This document shows, piece after piece, positions 10,095 through 22,678 of a stretch of 64,000 nucleotides of DNA. The stretch is from Chloroflexota bacterium (GTDB lineage Bacteria > Chloroflexota > Anaerolineae > J036 > Brachytrichaceae). How positions within the stretch are numbered: the first letter of the stretch is position 1; each line of letters begins with the position of its first letter. The stretch covers positions 1-64,000 of the forward strand of contig JAUQQA010000010.1 of assembly GCA_030550095.1 (NCBI GenBank). The letters run 5' to 3'. The notes under the pieces were generated by a model that saw only the letters and a program-made list of their open reading frames with translations, was not told where the DNA came from and did no database searches. A program made the position numbers and the translations under genes.

Positions 10095-10433
10095 TTACTT
10101 TGGGGTGGGCAACCGCTGCTGGGCGAGATCGTCGCGCAAGGCGCGCTTCATGGGAATGCCGAGACGGTAGGCAGCGGAGCCGATCGCGTGTGAGGTGGCA
10201 GGACCCGTGAGCACCAGCAACGCAATGAGCACTAGCCCTTTGCTCCACGCGAACGGCACGGTGAGCACCGCGGCGACGGTGAGCAGCACGACGCCGAAGG
10301 TCGCTACCTTGCCCACGGCGTGCATGCGAGCATAGACATCGGGCAGCCGCACCAATCCTAGAATCCCAATCACTGAGAACGCCGTGCCTACAAGCACAGC
10401 CAGCGTCGCCAGAAGGTAAGCGAGCGTCTCCAT
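10095..10433 (-). CDS. mnhG: Mrp-type Na+/H+ antiporter subunit G, set 1
   Basis: 112 residues with three membrane helices. Family signature: GTAFSVIGILGLVRLPDVYARMHAVGK near 16-42 and TGPATSHAIGSAAYRLG near 79-96. MrpG is one of the small hydrophobic subunits of the multi-gene Mrp complex that exchanges cytoplasmic Na+ (or K+) for external protons. It is the last gene of the long operon, 11 bases after mnhF, with a terminator behind it. The paralogue at 16108-16443 is clearly related. Confidence 0.95.
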   Translation of the reverse strand: METLAYLLATLAVLVGTAFSVIGILGLVRLPDVYARMHAVGKVATFGVVLLTVAAVLTVPFAWSKGLVLIALLVLTGPATSHAIGSAAYRLGIPMKRALRDDLAQQRLPTPK

Positions 10434-10444
10434 GAGCGGGTTCC

Positions 10445-10720
10445 TCAGAACATCTGCCGATTAGCGAGATACCGCGCAAGCGCTACCGTGCTGATGAACG
10501 ACAGCGCGGCGAAGCCAAGCGCGAGGTCCATGTAGAGCGCATCATCATTGAACAAAGCGAGCAGCACGAAGATAGCCAAGCCGAGCGTGGTGATCACGTC
10601 TGCCGCCACGAGCCGATCGAGCACCGTCTCGCCGCGCCAGACGCGCACAACAGCGACAGCGATCAGCAGGATGTGCAGCCCGAGCGAAAGCACAACAGCG
10701 CTGGTGAAAAGCGATTGCAT
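10445..10720 (-). CDS. mnhF: Mrp-type Na+/H+ antiporter subunit F, set 1
   Basis: 91 residues with three predicted helices. The conserved MrpF features are an R-V-W-R-G-E-T-V-L-D-R-L-V-A-A-D segment in the first loop (about 26-41) and a C-terminal LSFISTVALARYL that is nearly identical in the second copy. It is three bases from mnhE and 11 from mnhG, so co-translation is likely. It forms part of the membrane arm of the Mrp complex. Confidence 0.95.
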   Translation of the reverse strand: MQSLFTSAVVLSLGLHILLIAVAVVRVWRGETVLDRLVAADVITTLGLAIFVLLALFNDDALYMDLALGFAALSFISTVALARYLANRQMF

Positions 10721-10723
10721 AGC

Positions 10724-11221
10724 TCACTCAAAGATCGCCTTGAGCATCGCTTGGCGCTTGCGCTGCGCCTCCTCAGCGCCAGCGGCGCTGGCTTCAACGT
10801 CGAGGCAGTGCGTGTAGAGCGTGCCGTCGTCGCCGATCTCCACCACTTGCTCGCCAGGCGTGACGGTGATGGCGTGGGCGTTGAGCGCGCGCCCCAGCTC
10901 CGTGCGCATCTCGCTCTTGATGGCGAGGATGCCCGGCTTGATCGGCAGCTTCGGGTCGAGCACAATGCGCGCGACGCGAATGCCGTTGCGGATGATGTCC
11001 ACCGAGAGCCACACTACATACACCGCGAGGTTGAGCAGCGCGCTGGGTAAGCGCCGCAAGGACATCGGCTCGCTGGTCGGGCGCACAATGAACGTGATTG
11101 CGAGGCTGATCAGCAGCCCGATGACCCAATTGGCAGGCTCGAGATTGGCGGTGACCGCAAGGTAGAGCACAAGGCACAACGCGATCAGGCGGAGATAGGC
11201 AAGCAGATTCGGTTGGTTCAT
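10724..11221 (-). CDS. mnhE: Mrp-type Na+/H+ antiporter subunit E, set 1 (only copy)
   Basis: 165 residues from the ATG at 11221, which overlaps the mnhD stop by four bases; a longer frame reaches 11320 inside mnhD and is not credible. N-terminal helices (about 8-45) precede the MrpE signature: LAVYVVWLSVDIIRNGIRVA, then P-I-K-P-G-I-L and a cytoplasmic ferredoxin-like tail with TLYTHCLDVE. This is the only mnhE in the window; set 2 has none, with only three bases between its mnhD and mnhF. If two complexes form, they may share this subunit. Confidence 0.93.
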   Translation of the reverse strand: MNQPNLLAYLRLIALCLVLYLAVTANLEPANWVIGLLISLAITFIVRPTSEPMSLRRLPSALLNLAVYVVWLSVDIIRNGIRVARIVLDPKLPIKPGILAIKSEMRTELGRALNAHAITVTPGEQVVEIGDDGTLYTHCLDVEASAAGAEEAQRKRQAMLKAIFE

Positions 11222-12756
11222 CGCATCCTCCCTTCGGGGTTCACGCTGGCGACGTAACGCTCTGGTTGGGCGAGCCACGCGCTTGTGTCTTGCGCGACGT
11301 GCAACAGCGGTTGTGCCCAAATGCCGAGCACGAGGCAGAGCGCGACAAGCGACGCCGGCGCAAGCAGGCTATCTCCGTATGGCTTCACTTTTTCCTCGGG
11401 CGTGCGCGGCTCGAATGGCTCCCACCAGATGCGCATCAGCGCGCGCATCGTGTAGGTCACTGTCAGAATCCCAGCGACGCCGATGAGCAGCAGCGGTAGC
11501 CAATAGCCGAGTGCGGCTTCGGGCGTGGTTGCCTGCAAGGCGGCGATGCCGCTCTGGAAGAGGGCGAGCTTGCTCACAAAGCCGTTCATCGGTGGCAAGC
11601 CCGCAAGCGCCATGCTACCCAAGAAGAACACCACGCCAGCAAGCGGGGCATACTTGCCTGTGCCGCGCACCACCTGGAACGCTGCGCTCTTCACTGGGGC
11701 GCGGCTGGCGAGGTAACCGCTGAGCATGAGCATTGCGCTCTTCACCAGCGCGTGGTTGAACGCGAACACCAACGCAGCTGCGAGCGCGGGGGGCGTGCCC
11801 CAACCCAAGCCGACGTAGATGAAGCCGATCTGCGCCAGCGTGGAGTACGCAAACATGCGCTTGACGTTATGCGTGCCTGCTGCGCCCAGCCCACCGAAGA
11901 TGACCCCCACCACGCCGATCACCAACAGCGCCACGCGCAGCCAGTCCGCTTGCGGTGCCAACAACGTCGTGAGGCGCATAAAGCCATACACACCCAGCTT
12001 CACCACAACCGAGGAGAGCATCGCCGAGACCGGCGTTGGCGATGCGGTGTGAAAGTCGGGTTGCCAAAAGTGGAACGGCACAGCCGCGCTCTTCACCGCA
12101 AACGTGACAGCGAGGAATACCAATGCCGCAGGCAGCAGGGGTTGGTTTGGGTCTGCAGCGATGCGCCGCGCGAGATCTGCCATGTTCAGCGTGCCATAGC
12201 TCGCGTAGAGGCTGCCGATGCCGAAAAGCAGCGTGAACGAGGCAACTGTGCTGATCAGGAAATACTTGTAGGCGGCTTCCGCGCCGTAGCGGTCGTCGCT
12301 AATGGCGGTGAGCACCACGCCGGCGATCACCACCAGCTCGATCATCACGAAGAGGTTGAAGATGTCGCCCGTGAGGAACCCGCCGCTCAGCCCTGCCAGC
12401 AGCGCGAGGAAGAGCGGATAAAACGTGTTGTGCTGCACGGCTTTGTCTTTAGCGCCCAGCGCGTAGAGAAAGCCAAACACAAACACTAGCTGCGCCATGA
12501 AAGCGAAGAAGGCGCTGAGCAGGTCAACGACGAAGCTGATGCCGAACGGTGCAGCCCACGCGCCCATTTGAAACACGATCGGCTGCCCTTCGCGCCACAC
12601 TACCCAAAGCAGCCCGCTTGTCGCCGCGAACGAGAGCAACACGCTGCCAAACGCCCACCACGCTTGTGCACGCGGGCGTCGGCGCAGCAGCACAGCAACA
12701 GGAATGGCGCTGAACGGGATCAGGAATGGCAAGAGAGCGAGCAAAGAGGTGCGCAT
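11218..12756 (-). CDS. mnhD: Mrp-type Na+/H+ antiporter subunit D, set 1
   Basis: 512 residues with about 14 helices, homologous to complex I NuoM/NuoN proton-channel subunits. Channel residues are visible: Glu in NLFVMIELVV (helix 5) and Lys in FAVKSAAVPFHFWQPDFHTA (helix 7), followed by a second Lys in SSVVVKLGVYGF. MrpD is one of the two large antiporter-like subunits needed for cation/proton exchange. It lies eight bases after mnhC and overlaps mnhE by four. Confidence 0.96.
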   Translation of the reverse strand: MRTSLLALLPFLIPFSAIPVAVLLRRRPRAQAWWAFGSVLLSFAATSGLLWVVWREGQPIVFQMGAWAAPFGISFVVDLLSAFFAFMAQLVFVFGFLYALGAKDKAVQHNTFYPLFLALLAGLSGGFLTGDIFNLFVMIELVVIAGVVLTAISDDRYGAEAAYKYFLISTVASFTLLFGIGSLYASYGTLNMADLARRIAADPNQPLLPAALVFLAVTFAVKSAAVPFHFWQPDFHTASPTPVSAMLSSVVVKLGVYGFMRLTTLLAPQADWLRVALLVIGVVGVIFGGLGAAGTHNVKRMFAYSTLAQIGFIYVGLGWGTPPALAAALVFAFNHALVKSAMLMLSGYLASRAPVKSAAFQVVRGTGKYAPLAGVVFFLGSMALAGLPPMNGFVSKLALFQSGIAALQATTPEAALGYWLPLLLIGVAGILTVTYTMRALMRIWWEPFEPRTPEEKVKPYGDSLLAPASLVALCLVLGIWAQPLLHVAQDTSAWLAQPERYVASVNPEGRMR

Positions 12757-12764
12757 GGTGTTCC

Positions 12765-13097
12765 TCAGCCGCGCAATCCTTTCACCTCATCGTTATCACT
12801 CGTGCGGTAGCGCGTGGAGACCACGTAGAGCAGTGCGAGCACAAAAGCAAAGCCACCCATGCTAATCACAATCGCTGTGAGGATCAGCGCTTGAGGCAAA
12901 GCATCGCTGCGTTGCCCCACCGCCTTGGCGTAGGCTTCGGTCACGCCCTCATAGGCGCCCACCGAGAGCAAGAACAGGTTGACCGCGTTGGAGATGGTGA
13001 CCAGCCCGATCGCGGTGCGGATCACGTTGCGCCGCAGGAGCTGATACAGCCCGATGCCGAAGAGCGCGCCAATCGCAAGTGCACGCAGAAGATCCAT
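12765..13097 (-). CDS. mnhC: Mrp-type Na+/H+ antiporter subunit C, set 1
   Basis: 110 residues with three helices, a NuoK homologue. Signature segments are RTAIGLVTISNAVNLFLLS with the intramembrane Asn and DALPQALILTAIVISMGGFA. The C-terminus ends DNDEVKGLRG, matching DSDEVKGLRH in the second copy. It sits six bases behind the mnhA/B fusion. Confidence 0.96.
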   Translation of the reverse strand: MDLLRALAIGALFGIGLYQLLRRNVIRTAIGLVTISNAVNLFLLSVGAYEGVTEAYAKAVGQRSDALPQALILTAIVISMGGFAFVLALLYVVSTRYRTSDNDEVKGLRG

Positions 13098-13103
13098 CGT
13101 CGC

Positions 13104-16073
13104 TCACTCCAAATCGCGTTCGGGATGTCCAAGCGTGTCGAGGATGAAAACCGAGGCGCCGAGCACGGCAAGGCAGATCGCCAACTCGAACAACAGGGAA
13201 GTGGTGAGATCGAACCCACGTGGCAGCGGCAAACCGAGCGCCTCGCCAAGGTTGAAGTGCGAAAAAAACGTGCCGCCGAGGAAGATCGGCACCGTTGCGC
13301 CAAAGAGCACCGTGAGCAATCCCGCGCCGATCAACAACCCGGGGCGCACAATGCGCAAACGAAGGCGCGTTTGGTCATACCCGAAGATCACATACCAGAA
13401 GCCCACCGCCAAGCTCAGCGTCACACCTGCGGTGAAGCCGTCGCCAGGCTGGCTGTGACCGTACACCATCTGCACGAACGCCAAGACGGCGCTGAACGGC
13501 AGCAGAAGGTAGGCAAGCGCGCGCAGGAACGGCGAGGTGCGCACGCCGTCAATGCCGCGAATGCTGGCGGGCAAGCGCACTTCAGGCGTTGCCGCCTCCG
13601 CCTCGTATTCTGGCGACTCGTGCGCTGGGCGCAATGCTGCTGCGGTGGTCTCGCGCTTCTTCATCGCTAGGCGGATCAGGCTGTACACGCCGATGCCTGC
13701 CATGCTGAACACTGTGATCTCGATCAGCGTATCGAACCCGCGGAAATCCACCACGATCGCCCCCACGATATCCGCAGCGCCGGTGAGTGGCTTGGCATTG
13801 GCTTCGTAGAAGGGCGTGACGTGCGAGATGCGCGGGCGCGAGCTAAACGCATAGAGGCTGAGCAAGGTGACGGTAAGCCCGCCCAGCACAGCGATAATGC
13901 CGTTGCGCGCCGTGTCGCGCCAAGCGCGTCCGTTGAGCGCCTCGGCGGCGCGGCGTTGGACGCGTGGCAGCCGCGAAAGCGCGAGCACTAAGATCAGCGT
14001 AGAGAGCAGGTCCACGATCACCTGCACCAGCGCCACGTCAGGCGAAGGCTCCAGCGCGATCAGCAACGCCACTGCTAAGCCCGACGCCATCAGCGCGAGG
14101 ATAGCGAGCAGGTCGCGCCGAATGATCACCGCAACCAGCGCAGCGGCGACTGCGAGGAGCAGACTAAACGCGCGCAGGATCATCAGTGGCGGCGGCAACA
14201 CGCCGACGAGGTGCTCCCAAGAGAGGCTCGCTGACGAGGCAGCGAGGATGCGTGGCGGATCGCCGAGCGCCGCGAAGAGCGCGAACAACGTGAGCAGGAT
14301 CACCGCGAGGTAGGTGCGCACGTAGCCGCTCTGCGTCTGCGTCGCCAACGACGCGGCGCGGTCGAGCGTGGCAAGCACGCCCTCGTAAGCCTGGTTCATG
14401 GAGAGACGCGGCAAGGGCAACGCGCGGTAGGGCGCGCGTGCTGCGAACAAGCCGACACCACCCAACATCGCCGCGCCGCTGAGCATGAGGGGGACGCTCA
14501 CCCCATGGAATAGCTCCAACGAGACCTTCACCTTTGCCCCGTAAGCCGCTGAGGCAGCTTTGGCGAGCAGCTCGACGAGGGCATGCGGCTGGATCACCGT
14601 GATCACAAGCGAGAGCAAGGCAAGCAAGCCCGGCATGAGCACCATACCGATCGGCGCTTCATGCGGCGCATGTGCGGGTGCGTGCGTGTGGTGCTCGGCA
14701 GTCTCGTGTCCTTGAGCGCTCGGTACAAATCCTGCCCCCTTCGGCGTGAGAAACGTGTCGAGCACGAGCGTGGACGCTTGCGCGAACATCAACGCGCCGG
14801 TGAGCGTAGTGAGCGCAGGTTGAATAACGCGCATCACGGCGGGCAAGACAGGCTCCAACTCAGCCGCGAGCAGCGTCTCTTTCGCCAAAAAGCCGAATAG
14901 GGGCGGCACACCTGCCATCGAAAGCCCCGCGAGCAACGCCACAGCGAATGTGAGCGGCATGATGCGCGCCAGTTGACCAAGCTGGCGCAGGTCGCGCGTG
15001 CCCGCGCTATGGTCCACGATGCCCGCCACCATGAACATCGCACCTTTGTAAAGCGCGTGGGCGGTGATGCCGACCGTCAGCGCTTTGAACGCTGTAGGCG
15101 CTTCCTCGCCGAGCAGCATGGTGAGCGCGCCGAGCTGGCTCACGGTGGAATAAGCCAACACTGCCTTCCAGTCGTGTTGCCGCAACCCCACCAAGGCCCC
15201 GGTGATCATGGTGATCGCGCCGATGCTTGCCAGTGTCCAAAACCATAGCGGCGTGTTGCCCAAAGCAGGATGCAGGCGCGCCAGCAAGTACACCCCTGCT
15301 TTCACCATGGTCGCCGCGTGGAGATAAGTGCTCGCTGGCGTTGGCGCGCTCATCGCTGAAGGCAGCCAGAAGTGAAACGGGAATTGTGCGCTCTTAGTGA
15401 ACGCGCCAAACGCGATCAACCCAAACATCACCGGATACCAAGGATGTGCGCGCAAGCGTTCACCTTGCTGGGTGATCACGTTGAGATCCGTGCTGCCTGC
15501 GATCGCAGCAGCGAAGAGCAGCCCTGCCAGCAGCGCAATGCCCCCGCTGCCTGTGATGAACAAAGCTTTGAATGCGCCCGCGCGCGCCTCCGCGTCTTTG
15601 GTCTTGTAGGCGATCAGCAAGAACGATGTAAGGCTTGTGCCCTCCCAGAACACAAAGAGCGTGATCACGTCGCCTGCCAACACCACGCCCATCATCGCGG
15701 TCATGAACAGCAGCAGGTAAAGCATGAAGCGGCTGCCGTCCTGCCCTTGGAAGTAGTAGCCGGCATACACCGTCACCAACGCGCCGATGCCGCTCACGAG
15801 CAGCGCGAAGAGCAAGCCTAGCGCGTCGAGCTGGAACGCAAGCCGCACGCCAAGCGTGGGCAACCAATCGAGTTGCCATTGCAGCGTCTCTCCTTCGAGC
15901 ACTGTCGGCGCTTGCGCCAGCAGCGCGGCGAGCGCGATCGCTGGTGCTAAGGCGAGCATCCAACCGAGCAACGGCATGGACAGACGATGGGCAGCGCGCC
16001 CATTCACCGCTAGCCCAAGAAGGGCGCCAACCGCACATGCGAGAATGGGGGTGGGGAGCGCGAGCAAGGGCAT
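13104..16073 (-). CDS. mnhA: Mrp-type Na+/H+ antiporter subunit A with fused B domain, set 1
   Basis: 989 residues from the ATG at 16073; a longer frame to 16193 runs into mnhG of set 2. Residues about 1-520 form the NuoL-like antiporter with FWEGTSLTSFLL (helix 5 Glu) and FTKSAQFPFHFWLPSAMS (helix 7 Lys). Residues about 520-800 carry the MrpA-specific C-terminal region. About 840-989 is an MrpB domain, recognisable by YGHSQPGDGFTAGV and LFELAICLAVLGASVFILDT. The A-B fusion explains the lack of a free mnhB. It starts 34 bases after the previous mnhG, the largest gap inside the double operon. Confidence 0.96.
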   Translation of the reverse strand: MPLLALPTPILACAVGALLGLAVNGRAAHRLSMPLLGWMLALAPAIALAALLAQAPTVLEGETLQWQLDWLPTLGVRLAFQLDALGLLFALLVSGIGALVTVYAGYYFQGQDGSRFMLYLLLFMTAMMGVVLAGDVITLFVFWEGTSLTSFLLIAYKTKDAEARAGAFKALFITGSGGIALLAGLLFAAAIAGSTDLNVITQQGERLRAHPWYPVMFGLIAFGAFTKSAQFPFHFWLPSAMSAPTPASTYLHAATMVKAGVYLLARLHPALGNTPLWFWTLASIGAITMITGALVGLRQHDWKAVLAYSTVSQLGALTMLLGEEAPTAFKALTVGITAHALYKGAMFMVAGIVDHSAGTRDLRQLGQLARIMPLTFAVALLAGLSMAGVPPLFGFLAKETLLAAELEPVLPAVMRVIQPALTTLTGALMFAQASTLVLDTFLTPKGAGFVPSAQGHETAEHHTHAPAHAPHEAPIGMVLMPGLLALLSLVITVIQPHALVELLAKAASAAYGAKVKVSLELFHGVSVPLMLSGAAMLGGVGLFAARAPYRALPLPRLSMNQAYEGVLATLDRAASLATQTQSGYVRTYLAVILLTLFALFAALGDPPRILAASSASLSWEHLVGVLPPPLMILRAFSLLLAVAAALVAVIIRRDLLAILALMASGLAVALLIALEPSPDVALVQVIVDLLSTLILVLALSRLPRVQRRAAEALNGRAWRDTARNGIIAVLGGLTVTLLSLYAFSSRPRISHVTPFYEANAKPLTGAADIVGAIVVDFRGFDTLIEITVFSMAGIGVYSLIRLAMKKRETTAAALRPAHESPEYEAEAATPEVRLPASIRGIDGVRTSPFLRALAYLLLPFSAVLAFVQMVYGHSQPGDGFTAGVTLSLAVGFWYVIFGYDQTRLRLRIVRPGLLIGAGLLTVLFGATVPIFLGGTFFSHFNLGEALGLPLPRGFDLTTSLLFELAICLAVLGASVFILDTLGHPERDLE

Positions 16074-16107
16074 GGTGCGCAACGATAGCACGAATGGAGG
16101 ATGTGAA

Positions 16108-16443
16108 TTACTGGTCGCGTTGCATGATGGGTCGCAAGTCGTCACGCATGGCGCGCTGCAACGGCACGCCAAGGCGATAAGCCGCTGAAGCAATCGCGTG
16201 CGAGACTACAGGCCCAGCAATGATCAAAAGGACGATGAGCAGCAACCCTTTCCCGAAGGCGTTCGGCACGAGCGCGATCACAGCGATCGCCAACAGCGCA
16301 GCGCCGAACACGCTCACTTTTCCGGCGGCGTGCAGCTTGCTATACACGTCTGGCAGGCGCAACATGCCGATCACGCCGATCAGCGAGAAGGCGCTGCCGA
16401 TGAGAATGGCACTAATAGCCACAAGCTCTGTAATCATGCGCAT
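16108..16443 (-). CDS. mnhG: Mrp-type Na+/H+ antiporter subunit G, set 2
   Basis: 111 residues with three helices. GSAFSLIGVIGMLRLPDVYSKLHAAGK and GPVVSHAIASAAYRLG correspond closely to the set 1 protein. The ATG at 16443 has a GGAGAG Shine-Dalgarno; an in-frame ATG two codons later is possible. It is the last gene of the upstream antiporter set, with set 1 mnhA following after 34 bases and no terminator between. Confidence 0.95.
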   Translation of the reverse strand: MRMITELVAISAILIGSAFSLIGVIGMLRLPDVYSKLHAAGKVSVFGAALLAIAVIALVPNAFGKGLLLIVLLIIAGPVVSHAIASAAYRLGVPLQRAMRDDLRPIMQRDQ

Positions 16444-16455
16444 CTCTCCGTAAAC

Positions 16456-16731
16456 TCAGAACATGCGTTGCTCGGCAAGGTAACGCGCCAGCGCAAGCGT
16501 GCTGATGAAGCTCAACGCTGCAAGCGCAAGCGCGACGTCCACATAGAGGCTTTGCCGCAGCAGCAACGCTAACGCTAACACTACGCACAACAGCAGCACG
16601 CTCACCAACTCCAAGCTAAGCAGCCGCTCCGTGGCGTGCTTGGCGCGCATCAACCGCCAAGCAGCAAGAGCAAGCAGCGCTGCGTGCAGCACCAGCGCAC
16701 CGATGATCACCACATCTAGTGCTGAGGTCAT
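16456..16731 (-). CDS. mnhF: Mrp-type Na+/H+ antiporter subunit F, set 2
   Basis: 91 residues, the same length as the set 1 copy. The C-terminal ALSFISTLALARYLAEQRMF matches it closely, while the N-terminal half has diverged (A-W-R-L-M-R-A-K-H-A-T-E-R-L-L replaces the usual G-E-T-V-L-D-R-L segment). It follows mnhD directly with three bases between; the mnhE expected at this place is absent. Confidence 0.93.
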   Translation of the reverse strand: MTSALDVVIIGALVLHAALLALAAWRLMRAKHATERLLSLELVSVLLLCVVLALALLLRQSLYVDVALALAALSFISTLALARYLAEQRMF

Positions 16732-16734
16732 TGC

Positions 16735-18237
16735 TCACCCTCCAAGCACGGCGCGCACGTATTGATCTGGCGTGCGCATCCAGTCCACCACGTCGTTAGA
16801 GAGCTGGAGCAGCGGCTCAGGCCAAATGCCGAGCGCGACGCTCAGCGCGATCAAGATCGCCGGCGCCACCAGGCGATCGCCGTAGGGTTTGGGCTTCACA
16901 CCCTCGGGCATGGGCGACCACCAAATGCGTTGGAACGCGCGCACAACGTACACCAGTGTCACGATGCCCGCTAGCCCAATCGCTGCAAGCGGTGCGTAGT
17001 CGCCAATGGCGGCGCCGCTCTGGAAGATCAGCAGCTTGCTGATGAAGCCGTTGAGCGGTGGCACTCCCGCCAAGCCCATGCCGCCGAGCAGGAAGAGCAC
17101 CCCCGCTGCTGGTGTCACTTTGCCCAAGCCGGTGATCGCCTCGAAGGCAGCGGTCTTCACGGGGGCGCGGCTAGCGACGCTGCCGGCGAGCATGAGCATC
17201 GCTGCTTTGAGCAAGCTGTGGTTGAAGGCATACACGAGCGCTGCGATCAGCGCAAGCGGTGTGCCCCAGCCGATGGCGACGAGGATGAAGCCAAGCTGCC
17301 CGAGCGTGGAGTAGGCCAACATGCGCTTGGCGTCATACGTGCCCGCAGCGCCCAAGCCGCCAAACCAAGCGCCGATCACGCCAGCGAGGATGAGCAGCGG
17401 GCGCAGCAGCTCGGCTTGCGCAGGAAAGAGCAGCGTCGTCATGCGCAAGAAGCCGTAGATGCCGAGCTTGACCACCACCGAGGAGAGCACAGCGTGCACA
17501 GGTGTGGGTGCTGCGGTGTGGAAGTCGGGCTGCCAAAAGTGGAACGGCATCACCGCCCCTTTCACCATGAAGAACACCGCCATCAGCGCCATGGCTGGCA
17601 GCACCAACGGTGGTGAAGGATCGGCGGCGATGCGTTGCGCGAGATCGGCGAGGTTCAGCGTGCCGTAGCTCACATACAGCCCACCTACGGCAAGCAACAG
17701 CGCAAACGAAGCCAATAGGCTGATGTAGAAATACTTGTAAGCTGCCTCTGTGCCGAAGCGGTCGTCGGAGATCGCGGTGAGCGCGGCGCCGGCAAACACG
17801 AGTAGCTCGGCGAAGACGAACAGGTTGAACACATCGCCTGTCATCATCGCGCCGCTCAGTCCCGTCGCCAGCATTAAGAAGAGGGGGAAGAACATGGGGT
17901 ACTGCACGCATTGATCACGCGCACCCAGCGCATACAAGAAACCCATGCTCAGCACGAGTTGGGACATGAGCACCATCATCGCCGAGAGAAGGTCGGCGAC
18001 GAAGGTGATGCCAAACGGCGCTGCCCAGCCGCCAAGTTGCACCACCAGCGGTTTGCCGCTTTGCCATACTTGCTGCAACACAATCGCGCTGGTGATGAAC
18101 GCGCTGAGCATCGCGCCGAACGACCATGCCGCTTGAACGCGAGGGTTGCGCCGCAGCAGCACCGCCACTGGCACCGCGGCAAGCGGGATCAACACAGGGA
18201 GCAAAGCCAAGGTGTTCCGCTCCATGACATCTTTCAA
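16735..18237 (-). CDS. mnhD: Mrp-type Na+/H+ antiporter subunit D, set 2
   Basis: 500 residues with about 14 helices. Antiporter residues are present: Glu in NLFVFAELLVFAGAAL and Lys in FMVKGAVMPFHFWQPDFHTA, then SSVVVKLGIYGF. The start at 18237 overlaps the mnhC stop by four bases; an alternative ATG lies at 18225. Sequence and order match the set 1 mnhD, indicating a whole-operon duplication followed by divergence. Confidence 0.95.
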   Translation of the reverse strand: MKDVMERNTLALLPVLIPLAAVPVAVLLRRNPRVQAAWSFGAMLSAFITSAIVLQQVWQSGKPLVVQLGGWAAPFGITFVADLLSAMMVLMSQLVLSMGFLYALGARDQCVQYPMFFPLFLMLATGLSGAMMTGDVFNLFVFAELLVFAGAALTAISDDRFGTEAAYKYFYISLLASFALLLAVGGLYVSYGTLNLADLAQRIAADPSPPLVLPAMALMAVFFMVKGAVMPFHFWQPDFHTAAPTPVHAVLSSVVVKLGIYGFLRMTTLLFPAQAELLRPLLILAGVIGAWFGGLGAAGTYDAKRMLAYSTLGQLGFILVAIGWGTPLALIAALVYAFNHSLLKAAMLMLAGSVASRAPVKTAAFEAITGLGKVTPAAGVLFLLGGMGLAGVPPLNGFISKLLIFQSGAAIGDYAPLAAIGLAGIVTLVYVVRAFQRIWWSPMPEGVKPKPYGDRLVAPAILIALSVALGIWPEPLLQLSNDVVDWMRTPDQYVRAVLGG

Positions 18238-18569
18238 TGGCGAAGTCCTTTCACCTCGTCGCTGTCGCTCGTCTTGTAACGCACGGAGAGCACGTACAAC
18301 ATGGCGAGTATCAACGCGAAGCCGCCCATGCTGATCACGATCGCCGTCAGCACAAGCGCTTGCGGCAACGCATCGCTGCGCTGCCCAGCGAGGTTGGCGT
18401 AGGCGGCGACCTCGCCGCGGTATGCGCCCGCGGCGAGCAGAAACAAGTTGATCGCGTTGGAGAGGATCGCCAGCCCAATCGCAGAGCGGATCAAGTTGCG
18501 GCGCAGCATTTGGAACACGCCCACGCCGAACAACGCGCTGATTGCTAAAGCAGTGAGGAGGTCCATCAT
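18234..18569 (-). CDS. mnhC: Mrp-type Na+/H+ antiporter subunit C, set 2
   Basis: 111 residues from the ATG at 18569, which overlaps the mnhA/B stop by four bases. A longer open frame reaching 18740 lies antisense-free inside mnhA and has no support. NuoK-like signature: RSAIGLAILSNAINLFLLA and DALPQALVLTAIVISMGGFA. Coupled at both ends by ATGA overlaps. Confidence 0.95.
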   Translation of the reverse strand: MMDLLTALAISALFGVGVFQMLRRNLIRSAIGLAILSNAINLFLLAAGAYRGEVAAYANLAGQRSDALPQALVLTAIVISMGGFALILAMLYVLSVRYKTSDSDEVKGLRH

Positions 18570-21529
18570 CGCTCTTTGTTCCCTTGTTGCTGTGCTTGAG
18601 GCTCTTCGGGCAACGTCACCGCGCCGCTGGCGCGCAGTTGCGCAATCGCGGCAAGTTGCGCTTCTGTTTCTGTGTCGGCGTCGCGTGGGCGCCCGAGGGT
18701 ATCCAGCATGAGCACGGCGCTGCCGAGCACAGTGAGGCAAATCGCCAACTCATAGAGCGTCGCGGTGCTCAAATACACCCCTTTGGGCAGGAAAGCGCTG
18801 ATCCCCAGCCAGCGCCCGAAGTCCACGGGCGAAAGGAACGCGCCGTTCACCCATGCGGCGATCATGCCGTTGATCACCGCTATCCCAAGCCCCACGCCGA
18901 TCAGCACGCTGGCTTTCAGCCAGGTGAGACGGCGCTTGGTCTCAGCGTAGCCATACACCACATACCAGCTCGCCACCCCTAGGGCGATGATCACGCCTGC
19001 GGTGAAGCCATCGCCAGGTTGATCGTGTCCGAGCAGGATGTGTGACACGCCGAGCACCATCGTCAGCGGCAACATGAAGCGCGCCAACACGCGCAGCATT
19101 GGCGAGAGACACATGTCGCCCACGCCGCATAGCCGCTGCAGGGCGTAGCGTGGTGCGGGTTCATCTTCACGGTCGCCTGCCTTGCGCGAGGCATAGCGCA
19201 GCAGCACGTAAATCGCCATGCCCGCAGCGCTGAACACGGCGATCTCAATGAGCGTGTCTAGCCCGCGGAAGTCAATGATGATCGCGCCGACGATGTCGTT
19301 TGCGCTGGTGAGCGGCTTTGCGTTTTGCTCGAAGAACGGTGTAAGTTGTGAAGTGCGCGGGCGTGTGCTGAGCGCGTTGAAGACGAGGACGAACACAACG
19401 GCGCTCGTCCCCAAGGCGAGCAGCGCATCGCGCAATAAGCCAAAGCGGCTTTGGCGGAAGGTGAACTCCGCGGCGCGGGCGCGTTGCGAGGCGGGCAGGC
19501 GCGTGAGCACCAACACAAGCACCACCGCAGTGAGCACCTCCACCACCACTTGCACCAGCGCGATGTCTGGCGCTGGTTCGAGCAACATCAAGCCGGCGAT
19601 GCTCAGCCCTGAGGCGGCTAGCGCCAAAATGGCGAACAGATCGCGTCTCAGCAGGACGCTCGCAAGCGCCGCGCCAGTGGTCAGCGCCAACAGCACTAAA
19701 CGCAGCAAGGCGCCGGCGTTGAGTGCGAGCGAGGGCAAAGCAAGCGCAGGCAATGGCAACCGCCCAACGCCCACCACCATCACAATCAGGCTAACCAACA
19801 TCACCGCGAGGTAAAGGCGCAATTGCCCATTCTGCACGCGCGTGGTCAGCCATGCTAAACCGTCTATGCCGCGTAGCACGGCGCGATAGATCGGCTCAAG
19901 CTGCCAGTTGCCAGTAGCCTGCGCAAGCTGTGGGCGAACGCGCTGACGTGTCCAGAGCAGTGTGCTGCCCGCGAGCACCGCGACGGCGCTGAGCACAAGC
20001 GGGATGTTGATCCCCGTCCACAGCGCAAGCGAGACCTTCACCTTCGCACCACTCGCGGCGCTGGCAGCGCGGGCGAGCAACGTGGCGAGCCACTCAGGTT
20101 CAGGCAGCAAGCCAATCACCAGCGAGCCAAGCGCAGGCAGTGCCGGCGCCATCCACATCGGCGTGGGCGCTTCGTGAGCATGATGTTTGCGCCGTGGAGC
20201 GCCCAAGAAGCCATCGAGCACAATCAAGCCAGCTTGCGCGAGCACCAGCGCTCCTGCGACAACCACAATCGCTGTGAAGATCGCGCTTGCTGCGGGCGGC
20301 ACACTGGGGTGGGTGATGGTTGCCAGCTGGGTTTCCTTGGCGAGGAAGCCGAACAGCGGCGGCAGGCCCGCCATGGAGAGCGCCGCTAGCCCCGCGACGG
20401 CAAATGTGAAAGGCATTGCGCGCCACAGCCCGCCAAGCTGTTGCAGATCGCGCGTGCCCGTCTCGTGGTCCACAATGCCCGTCACCAAGAAGAGCGCGCT
20501 CTTGTAGAGCGCATGCGCCGTCAGGCTCACTGTCAGCGCCTTAAATGCGATCTCCGTGTCTTGCCCGATCATTGCAATGAGCGCCCCGAGTTGGCTCACG
20601 GTGGAGTAGGCAAGCAATGCCTTAAGGTCGTTTTGCTTAAACCCGATGTAGGCGCCGACCAGCATCGTGGTGAGCCCCACCACACTGAGCAGCCAAAACC
20701 AAAGATCGGTGTAGCCCAAGGCGGGGTTGAGGCGAGCGAGCAAGTACACGCCTGCCTTGACCATCGTTGCGGAGTGCAGATATGCCGATGCAGGCGTGGG
20801 CGCGCTCATCGCGCCAGGCAACCAGAAGTGCGCGGGGAACTGGGCGCTTTTGGTAAACGCGCCGAGCGCGATCAGCCCGACGACGACGGGATAAAGCCAA
20901 TGCGCGCGGAGCTGGGTGCCTTGCGCAAGGATCGCGCCGAACTCGGCGCTGCCGCTGAGCACCATCAGCAACACCAATCCTGCAAGCAGCGCGATCCCAC
21001 CTCCGCCTGTGATGAACAAGGCGCGAAATGCAGCTTGGCGCGCGGCTTCGTCTTTGAACTTGTAGCCCACAAGCAAGAACGAGGTGAGGCTGGTGCCCTC
21101 CCAGAAGACAAACAGCGTGATCACGTCGCCCGCCAGCACTAAGCCCAGCATGGCGGTCATGAACAACGTGAGGAACACGAAGAAACGCGCCTCACTAGAC
21201 CCCTCGTGCCCGCTGAAGTAGTAGCCAGCGTAGATCGTCACCAGCGCACCAATGCCGCTCACCAACAGCCCAAAGAGCAGACTCAAGCCATCGAGCGTGA
21301 GCGTGGCGTTCAGCCCCAACGTAGGCATCCAAGCAATGCGCCAGGTGAGCGTCTCGCCCGCGAGCACTTGTGGCGAAAGCGCAAGCAGCGCGGCGAACGC
21401 CAGTGCTGGCGCCGGCGCGATCAACCAGCCCAGCGCGGGCGCAGGCAAACGACGCGCCGGCGTGAGCGCAAGCAAGATGCTGAGCAGCGCTCCAAGCGCA
21501 CATGCAAGGAGGGGGATCACAACTGTCAT
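18566..21529 (-). CDS. mnhA: Mrp-type Na+/H+ antiporter subunit A with fused B domain, set 2
   Basis: 987 residues from the ATG at 21529, one base after the stop of the cation exchanger gene; the frame continues upstream to 21595 but only inside that gene. It contains the NuoL-like core (FWEGTSLTSFLL; FTKSAQFPAHFWLPGAMS), the MrpA C-terminal region and a fused MrpB domain (GHDQPGDGFTAGV; YELAICLTVLGSAVLMLDT). After the B domain it has a polar tail of about 40 residues (RPRDADTETEAQLAAI onward) that set 1 lacks. The one-base junction with the exchanger puts both antiporters under the same leader. Confidence 0.96.
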   Translation of the reverse strand: MTVVIPLLACALGALLSILLALTPARRLPAPALGWLIAPAPALAFAALLALSPQVLAGETLTWRIAWMPTLGLNATLTLDGLSLLFGLLVSGIGALVTIYAGYYFSGHEGSSEARFFVFLTLFMTAMLGLVLAGDVITLFVFWEGTSLTSFLLVGYKFKDEAARQAAFRALFITGGGGIALLAGLVLLMVLSGSAEFGAILAQGTQLRAHWLYPVVVGLIALGAFTKSAQFPAHFWLPGAMSAPTPASAYLHSATMVKAGVYLLARLNPALGYTDLWFWLLSVVGLTTMLVGAYIGFKQNDLKALLAYSTVSQLGALIAMIGQDTEIAFKALTVSLTAHALYKSALFLVTGIVDHETGTRDLQQLGGLWRAMPFTFAVAGLAALSMAGLPPLFGFLAKETQLATITHPSVPPAASAIFTAIVVVAGALVLAQAGLIVLDGFLGAPRRKHHAHEAPTPMWMAPALPALGSLVIGLLPEPEWLATLLARAASAASGAKVKVSLALWTGINIPLVLSAVAVLAGSTLLWTRQRVRPQLAQATGNWQLEPIYRAVLRGIDGLAWLTTRVQNGQLRLYLAVMLVSLIVMVVGVGRLPLPALALPSLALNAGALLRLVLLALTTGAALASVLLRRDLFAILALAASGLSIAGLMLLEPAPDIALVQVVVEVLTAVVLVLVLTRLPASQRARAAEFTFRQSRFGLLRDALLALGTSAVVFVLVFNALSTRPRTSQLTPFFEQNAKPLTSANDIVGAIIIDFRGLDTLIEIAVFSAAGMAIYVLLRYASRKAGDREDEPAPRYALQRLCGVGDMCLSPMLRVLARFMLPLTMVLGVSHILLGHDQPGDGFTAGVIIALGVASWYVVYGYAETKRRLTWLKASVLIGVGLGIAVINGMIAAWVNGAFLSPVDFGRWLGISAFLPKGVYLSTATLYELAICLTVLGSAVLMLDTLGRPRDADTETEAQLAAIAQLRASGAVTLPEEPQAQQQGNKER

Positions 21530-21530
21530 C

Positions 21531-22643
21531 TCAGCCTGTGGAACCTCGTCCTGCGGTCGCGCGCTGCTGCAATTGCCGCAGCTCACGCACCGCAAGCAAA
21601 ACCAACGTGATTGTGGTCAGCGGAAGCGCCACAGAAAGCATAAAGGCGTTGTAGCTGGGCAAGAGCGGGTTTTGGGTTGCTTCAAAGATGAGGTAGAGCG
21701 TGTAAGCGACGTAGTAGGCGAGGAAAAGCCCGCCTTCCCATCGGGAGACGCTGTTGCCTGTGAAGAAGATCGGCAAACATGCGAACGCCACAGCGAGCAT
21801 GATGGGGAAGTCGAAGTTCAACAGGCGCGGGGTCACCTCAACCCCATTTGGCGCGACGGTCGCCGTAGCGCCGAGCACGGAGAGCAGGTTAAAGATGTTG
21901 CTGCCCACGATGTTGCCCACGGCGATGTCGCGCTCGCCGCGCAAACTCGCCACCACTGAGGTCGCTACTTCGGGGAGCGACGTGCCGCCCGCGATCAGCG
22001 TCAGCGCGATCACCACCTCGCTCACGCCCAACGCGCGCGCGATGGCGACGGCGCCGTCAATCAGCCAGCGCGAGCCCACCACGAGCATCGCCAAGCCTGC
22101 TACGACGAGCACGAGGTTCACCACGATTTGCCCCAAGCCGCGAGGACGTTCGCCGAACTCTTTGGCGTATTCCTCTTCCACCTCGCGGCTCTCGCGGCGG
22201 CTTTCGATGACGAGGAAAATGGTGTAAGCGATGATGCCACCGAAGAGCAACAAGCCCTCTAGGCGCCCCACGTTGCCGTCTAACGCGAACAGATAGGCGA
22301 TGAGCGAGATGCCGATCATCAGCGGCACGTCGAGCTGCACTAGTTGTTGCGCCACGGTGAGCGGCGCAACCAGCGCCGAAAGCCCGAGGATGAGCAACAC
22401 GTTGAAGATGTTGCTGCCCACCACGTTGCCCAACGCCACGCTGCTCAGCCCGAGCAGCGAGGATTGCACGCTCACCGCCAGCTCTGGCGCGCTCGTGCCG
22501 AACGCCACCACCGTCAGCCCGATCACCAGCGGCGAGACACCCACCGCTGCTGCTAAACGCGATGCGCCGCGCACCAGCGACTCAGCACCAACGATTGCGA
22601 GAATAAGCCCGCCGACGAAAAGCACAAGGGTCAATGCGTCCAT
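21531..22643 (-). CDS. CaCA-family cation/Na+ (or H+) exchanger, YrbG-like
   Basis: 370 residues from the ATG at 22643, preceded by a GGAAG Shine-Dalgarno ten bases away. About ten helices in two inverted halves, each with an alpha repeat: GTSAPELAVS near 45 and GGTSLPEVATS in the second half, the acidic residues that bind Ca2+ in this family. The loop between halves is charged (ESRRESREVEEEYAKEFGERP). YrbG homologues are annotated as Ca2+/Na+ exchangers. The Mn2+-type riboswitch in the leader suggests this one exports Mn2+, or Ca2+ and Mn2+, which would prevent metal toxicity. It is the first protein gene of the 12-gene unit. Confidence 0.9.
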   Translation of the reverse strand: MDALTLVLFVGGLILAIVGAESLVRGASRLAAAVGVSPLVIGLTVVAFGTSAPELAVSVQSSLLGLSSVALGNVVGSNIFNVLLILGLSALVAPLTVAQQLVQLDVPLMIGISLIAYLFALDGNVGRLEGLLLFGGIIAYTIFLVIESRRESREVEEEYAKEFGERPRGLGQIVVNLVLVVAGLAMLVVGSRWLIDGAVAIARALGVSEVVIALTLIAGGTSLPEVATSVVASLRGERDIAVGNIVGSNIFNLLSVLGATATVAPNGVEVTPRLLNFDFPIMLAVAFACLPIFFTGNSVSRWEGGLFLAYYVAYTLYLIFEATQNPLLPSYNAFMLSVALPLTTITLVLLAVRELRQLQQRATAGRGSTG

Positions 22644-22678
22644 GGTTTTGCCTTCCGCTTTTGAGTTTTGAAACAAGT

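Follow-up and report, generated by a model that had tools for sequence, protein, structure and literature searches.

Closest described systems and the locus

Mrp-type cation/proton antiporters whose MrpA and MrpB are fused are assigned to group 2 (PMC5703873), and in the structure from A. flavithermus MrpE is reported to form most of the dimer interface, with a His and a Pro lying near it (PMC7419157). How the coupling cation enters Mrp is disputed, with published models taking it in at a MrpE/MrpG gateway and on via MrpF-Asp38 to MrpA-Glu687, or directly to Glu687 (PMC7419157, PMC9568556). When mrpE is deleted the other Mrp subunits are reported still to assemble, and MrpE is reported as dispensable in B. 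subtilis (PMC5703873). Here we describe two neighbouring Mrp sets in the window, a stretch of 64,000 nucleotides (contig JAUQQA010000010.1, positions 1 to 64,000) from a Chloroflexota bacterium of the family Brachytrichaceae, and find that the first of them, set 1, lacks mnhE in every genome of the family in which it occurs. We put a probability of about 0.5 on set 1 being an antiporter that works without MrpE and has a retuned cation path, a reading made from sequence comparison. On this reading, set 1 (A/B fusion, C, D, F and G) would function as a Mrp-type cation/proton antiporter derived from an MrpE-bearing operon; mnhE would have been lost before the genera of the family split, leaving set 1 to operate without MrpE; the cation path would be retuned by Glu/Glu replacing Asp/Asp at MrpA-687 and MrpF-38; and the complex would probably be co-produced with the complete set-2 antiporter from a long directon (a run of same-direction genes) headed by a calcium/sodium antiporter.

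A sequence-only reading of the window had described two sets in the order A/B fusion, C, D, (E), F, G, with three bases between mnhD and mnhF in one of them, and it proves correct in coordinates, gene order, polar tail and lack of mnhE. The directon runs on the minus strand from 22655 to 10095 and holds twelve genes, the CaCA exchanger followed by A/B1, C1, D1, F1, G1 and then A/B2, C2, D2, E2, F2, G2, placed as follows.

21531..22655, minus strand: calcium/sodium antiporter (CaCA family), first gene of the directon; TIGR00367 above cut-off
18566..21529, minus strand: set 1 mnhA/B fusion with a polar C-terminal tail; Pfam Proton_antipo_M, MbhD, MbhE and MnhB
18234..18569, minus strand: set 1 mnhC; PF00420
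16735..18225, minus strand: set 1 mnhD; PF00361
16732..16734, minus strand: three-base gap between mnhD1 and mnhF1, the site of mnhE in other sets; from reading the sequence
16456..16731, minus strand: set 1 mnhF, Glu standing at the position of B. pseudofirmus D38; PF04066
16108..16443, minus strand: set 1 mnhG; PF03334, and TIGR01300 over cut-off
13104..16073, minus strand: set 2 mnhA/B fusion, polar tail absent; matches to PDB 6z16_A, 7qru_A and 7d3u_A
12765..13097, minus strand: set 2 mnhC; profile match
11218..12756, minus strand: set 2 mnhD; profile match
10724..11221, minus strand: set 2 mnhE, the sole mnhE found in the genome; PF01899
10445..10720, minus strand: set 2 mnhF; profile match
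10095..10433, minus strand: set 2 mnhG; PF03334, and a match to PDB 7qru_G

A/B1 starts one base past the CaCA exchanger gene, C1 overlaps A/B1, D2 and E2 overlap by four bases, and some 34 bases separate G1 from A/B2. All twelve genes may share a common transcript. Scans of the region for promoters (1 promoter-like site, 1.9 being expected from shuffled sequence) and for terminators (23 terminator-like sites scattered through the region, against 14.2 expected) were uninformative.

Set 2, with its A/B fusion and the order A' C D E F G, is an ordinary group 2 member. Set 1 has the hallmarks of the Mrp/CPA3 family (MrpA and MrpD antiporter domains with their essential Glu and Lys, MrpC, MrpF, MrpG and an MrpB domain), and its fusion and gene order fit the group 2 arrangement mrpA'CDEFG with mnhE absent, so it is filed here as a Mrp-type antiporter and not as a full group 2 member. 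Both sets share with the group 2 systems of P. aeruginosa, V. cholerae, S. meliloti (Pha1) and Dietzia (7D3U) the fused A/B, the order A' C D (E) F G, all membrane domains and the essential Lys and Glu residues, from which set 1 departs by lacking mnhE. In Dietzia only the dimerization domain of MrpE is reported to be missing, whereas set 1 has lost the whole gene. Mutants of B. pseudofirmus OF4 and B. subtilis with mrpE deleted likewise have a reported complex of the remaining subunits without MrpE, but these are engineered, whereas the loss in set 1 is natural, old and stands beside a complete set. Two Mrp sets in one genome are also reported for S. aureus (Mnh1/Mnh2) and S. meliloti (Pha1/Pha2), which are described as complete clusters of group 1 or of group 2 rather than as a single tandem unit. 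Within the class Anaerolineae, the Anaerolineaceae (Levilinea, Ornatilinea) are reported to have mrpAD and mrpA'CDEFG operons, one genus having two operons; of the Mrp genes the reduced operons retain A and D alone, and none without E alone is described in the portion of that report drawn on here (PMC10937449). The Mrp of Thermomicrobium roseum, also of the Chloroflexota, is reported to be a Ca2+/H+ antiporter, its cation not being Na+, and its description as a seven-gene group 1 system sets it apart from set 1. The dispensability of MrpE on deletion and the reduced mrpAD operons of Anaerolineaceae are already known; in the open-licence literature we found no published natural Mrp set lacking mnhE alone, and no paper on Roseilinea antiporters. 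Our data suggest that this family has conserved a version of Mrp that is free of MrpE or shares it.

Absence of mnhE across the family

The Pfam MnhE profile, searched against the whole genome (2.35 Mb, 67 contigs, 97.4% complete), returned one match, the set-2 gene, and the MnhG profile returned two, so that a second mnhE belonging to set 1, for which the sequence-only reading had advised watching, was not found by profile in this assembly. Its presence in the missing few percent of the genome is unlikely, given the pattern across the family. As that reading had proposed looking for, the same double operon is present in related genomes, occurring in 11/28 genomes of the family over three genera, and set 1 lacks mnhE in 11/11. 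Ten of these double operons were recognised by two MnhG matches, each of these genomes having exactly one MnhE match, and the eleventh (G014) by gene order; G014 has no MnhE match, as is to be expected of its short contig, which ends inside D2. In one genome (G025) the double operon is split across two contigs. A single set was present in 7/28 genomes, always with mnhE (4 of the set-2 clade, 3 in genus g2), and no Mrp set of either kind in 10/28. The absence of mnhE from set 1 in all eleven genomes and three genera marks it as a stable trait and not a recent accident.

Over the annotated loci, within the family and outside it, MnhF came directly after MnhD in 11 sets, each of them a set 1, and MnhE did so in 60 sets (duplicates left out). 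The script that tabulated these gaps skipped the main set of L068 (L, G and g numbers are our handles for loci, genomes and genera) on account of its orientation, and E is present there too. Among 35 further loci of the class, mnhE was found in every set of readable order, these being 35 regions taken from among the class genomes with profile matches, a subset of them; of 397 class genomes, 193 had an MnhG match and 191 an MnhE match. Before counting, ten loci repeating other loci (200-base probe match) were dropped, as were L106-L116, most of them from Elusimicrobia, where no Mrp set could be made out.

Other rearrangements were seen in the course of this survey. In L157 (G190) the gene order is A C E F G D, mnhD being displaced behind mnhG, and in L083, L087, L093, L102 and L105 (Anaerolineae) mnhG is inverted and lies upstream of mnhA. 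One genome (G057; L079 and L135) has two different complete Mrp sets in tandem, each with its own mnhE, the second being of a distant type. The single sets of genus g2 (L118, L124, L127) have diverged MnhE, MnhF and MnhB, and their MnhF lacks the Asp otherwise invariant in the sample. The Synechococcus elongatus control gave a match to the MnhG profile and none to the MnhE profile, MrpE there being absent or diverged.

Conservation of set 1 and its Glu/Glu pair

Comparison over the same 21 genome pairs gave protein identities for set 1 and set 2, respectively, of 80.8 and 76.6% for the A N-terminus, 84.3 and 81.5% for the A C-terminus, 88.1 and 82.7% for D, 85.8 and 89.5% for C, 78.4 and 80.5% for B, 74.3 and 74.1% for F, and 73.9 and 79.2% for G. 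In the 7 pairs that include the window, three subunits were clearly less conserved in set 1 than in set 2, at 64.5 and 71.5% for B, 56.0 and 65.3% for F, and 60.8 and 72.5% for G. Over the A+C+D core the set-1 rate was 0.78 times that of set 2; a core at least as constrained as that of set 2 indicates that set 1 is in use and under strong selection.

The set-1 genes of the window are free of internal stops, and the charged residues whose loss is reported to abolish antiport in B. pseudofirmus (PMC5703873) are kept in almost every set-1 row that could be read, in MrpA (E140, K223 and K299 in 9/9 rows, R773 in 8/9, E780 in 8/8) and in MrpD (E137 in 10/10, K219 in 11/11); MrpG P81 is likewise kept (11/11). 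One of the nine MrpA rows has Ser in place of R773 and is gapped at E780, and this row may be L060. The A/B1 of L060 was matched in two C-terminal pieces, perhaps through a frameshift, an insertion or an assembly error. At the Asp32 position of MnhF, the window has Glu, and 10/11 set-1 rows have Asp.

A molecular dynamics study describes MrpA-687 and MrpF-38 as successive sodium stations (PMC9568556). At these two positions set 1 has Glu/Glu in 9/9 operons, whereas set 2 and the single sets of the family (n=16) have Asp/Asp in 15, Glu/Asp in 1 and Glu/Glu in 0. Among 52 other sets the pair was Asp/Asp in 31, Glu/Asp in 9 and Asp/Glu in 8, with MrpA unreadable in 4, so that Glu/Glu occurs in 0/48 other operons with both residues readable. 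Set 1 is the sole group without MrpE and the sole group with two Glu, and we read the pair as a probable adjustment of the cation path. Glu at MnhF-38 taken singly was considered as a set-1-specific loss and rejected, as it is also found in 10/59 other sets; only the Glu/Glu combination is peculiar.

MrpE-free or MrpE-sharing

Several observations weigh against a set 1 that dispenses with MrpE. Point mutations in the MrpE of B. pseudofirmus are reported to be able to abolish activity (PMC5703873). Set 1 occurs without set 2 in 0/28 family genomes. The positions conserved in MrpE-bearing sets are all kept in set 1 (27/27 in MnhG and 26/26 in MnhB), including the His and the Pro lying near MrpE, as if MrpE were still bound, and a binding site for MnhE2 may therefore persist. 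The B, F and G proteins on the MrpE side change, relative to the core, 1.46 times (95% 1.14-1.89) as fast in set 1 as in set 2, which favours an MrpE-free set 1, but the set-1 ratio of B/F/G to core, 1.71, stands at the top of and within the range of MrpE-bearing groups (0.57-1.72). Lastly, all set-1 operons form one clade, so that the link between MrpE loss and the Glu/Glu pair counts as a single event. A relaxation of selection on the MrpE side was considered for set 1 and kept as only a hint, since MrpE-bearing controls equal it (g2 1.72, Anaerolineales subset 1.61).

The co-occurrence of the sets and the intact MnhG and MnhB positions are also what favours the sharing of one MnhE, whether MnhE2 joins both complexes or a set-1 and a set-2 protomer pair as a heterodimer with one MrpE at the interface, an explanation that we take seriously but hold to be somewhat doubtful. 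In its favour too, set 2 stands alone in 4 genomes (7 with the related g2 sets), the sets lie about 34 bases apart on the same strand, and MnhE2 aligns over the N-terminal region that makes up the dimer interface of the A. flavithermus complex (the alignment to the full-length MrpE chains 6u8y_A, 6z16_E and 7qru_E covers its N-terminal part, starting at residue 7-17). Sharing sits less well with the relatively faster B, F and G of set 1, within the control range as these are, and with a Glu/Glu cation pair that set 1 has for itself. Set 1 has been lost in no more than two or three events, a number too small for a test of its dependence on set 2, and the data show no direct sign that the sets interact.

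If set 1 is instead a working MrpE-free antiporter, it would form a complex independent of MnhE2, with a cation affinity or selectivity unlike that of set 2. Tentatively, it could be a pump into which the cation passes without the MrpE/MrpG gateway, the pair of sets then providing different cation affinity or selectivity, or combining into an obligate heterodimer that contains a single MrpE. With the complete set next to it as a built-in control, a set that naturally lacks MrpE would put the gateway model to a direct test.

Ancestry of set 1

The sequence-only reading had called the sets tandem duplicates. They do lie head to tail, but they are no recent tandem duplication: protein identity between them is 53% for A/B, 73% for C, 61% for D, 43% for F and 56% for G, and MnhD1 is closer, at 64-67%, to the MnhD proteins of other lineages (L062, L063, L064, L068, L079, L084) than to MnhD2. 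All trees were quick searches with support from the Shimodaira-Hasegawa-like approximate likelihood ratio test (SH-aLRT) and no bootstrap; the first trees were built without L068, L102, L136 and the second set of L079, L068 being restored later, and rows were further thinned, with 15/35 later loci left out as repeating known MnhD sequences. In the MnhD tree the 11 set-1 rows formed one clade (99), and set 2 with the single sets of g1, g5 and g6 another (99). Set 1 was also monophyletic for the N- and C-terminal parts of MnhA, MnhB, MnhC and MnhF; in the weak MnhG tree it fell into two groups. Concatenated trees placed set 1 with E-bearing sets of Anaerolineales and Phycisphaeraceae, with support of 99 for a grouping with L062 and L073, and of 97, in a second tree, with L062, L064, L066, L068 and L073. 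A single clade of set 1, set 2 and the single sets was rejected by the approximately unbiased test (p-AU 0.013 for the concatenation, 0.015 for MnhD).

The five sets of this second grouping share with set 1 the longer form of the polar tail of MnhA/B (read by eye), and they carry D-E-F-G. It is because these best relatives carry mnhE that its absence from set 1 is taken as a loss, bearing out one of the two alternatives that the sequence-only reading had left, loss from one set or gain by the other. The tail, which had been noted there as a difference between the sets, is a real one, set 2 being without it, but is no novelty of set 1, as related tails occur in other lineages. As proof of a separate origin it was rejected, since short versions are widespread in other sets.

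The MnhA N-terminal domain tells otherwise, joining set 1 to set 2 (SH-aLRT 93 in one tree and 99 in another) and rejecting the grouping of set 1 with the tail-bearing sets (p-AU 0.0096). With a wider sample, the parts other than the MnhA N-terminus preferred the tail-bearing kin and did not reject the clade with set 2 (p-AU 0.26). In a sliding comparison along MnhA, the identity of set 1 to set 2 exceeded that to the tail-bearing sets by 0.06-0.15 between residue 26 and about residue 270, after which the excess faded. An affinity lying mainly in the first ~270 residues fits recombination between the neighbouring A genes. The ancestry of set 1 thus appears to be a mosaic, in which the start of MnhA1 goes with set 2 and the remainder probably does not, and in the simplest reading of these trees a set of other ancestry would have arrived beside the native set and swapped the 5' part of mnhA. 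Separate origins, the outcome that would have told against a duplication, appear to hold at least in part: as each other's closest relatives the sets are rejected by the concatenation and by MnhD, supported by the MnhA N-terminus, and not rejected by the other parts in the wider sample.

A tandem duplication in the family ancestor, followed by loss of mnhE from set 1, is less likely, also in the form of an old duplication with exchange afterwards. It draws on the MnhA N-terminal domain, both for the union of the sets and for the rejection of the tail-bearing grouping, and on the compatibility of the remaining parts with a common clade; it is opposed by the concatenation and MnhD tests, by the placement of set 1 at 97 with tail-bearing, mnhE-bearing sets, by the closeness of MnhD1 to other lineages and by the confinement of the set-2 affinity mostly to the beginning of MnhA. 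The split between the sets is old, and mnhE was lost from set 1 before the three genera diverged.

It is very improbable that set 1 is redundant and slowly decaying, without a role of its own: it is absent from G002, of the same genus as the window genome, both sets are absent from G001, and in the window B1, F1 and G1 have diverged further than B2, F2 and G2, with Glu for the usual Asp32 in MnhF1, but the window's set-1 reading frames are intact, the A and D core is better conserved than in set 2, and set 1 is kept in 11 genomes of three genera. Neighbouring Mrp sets call for caution before they are annotated as redundant copies.

The CaCA antiporter gene beside Mrp sets

A CaCA antiporter gene lies directly upstream of Mrp sets in many Anaerolineae (L056-L061, L065, L069, L085, L086, and further L089-L091, L094, L117, L118, L124, L125, L127, L129 and L133), and this adjacency suggests that sodium and calcium cycling are coupled. 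In L071, L075, L079 and L101 the CaCA gene is downstream of the Mrp set, and in several genomes of genus g6 it is present in two consecutive copies.

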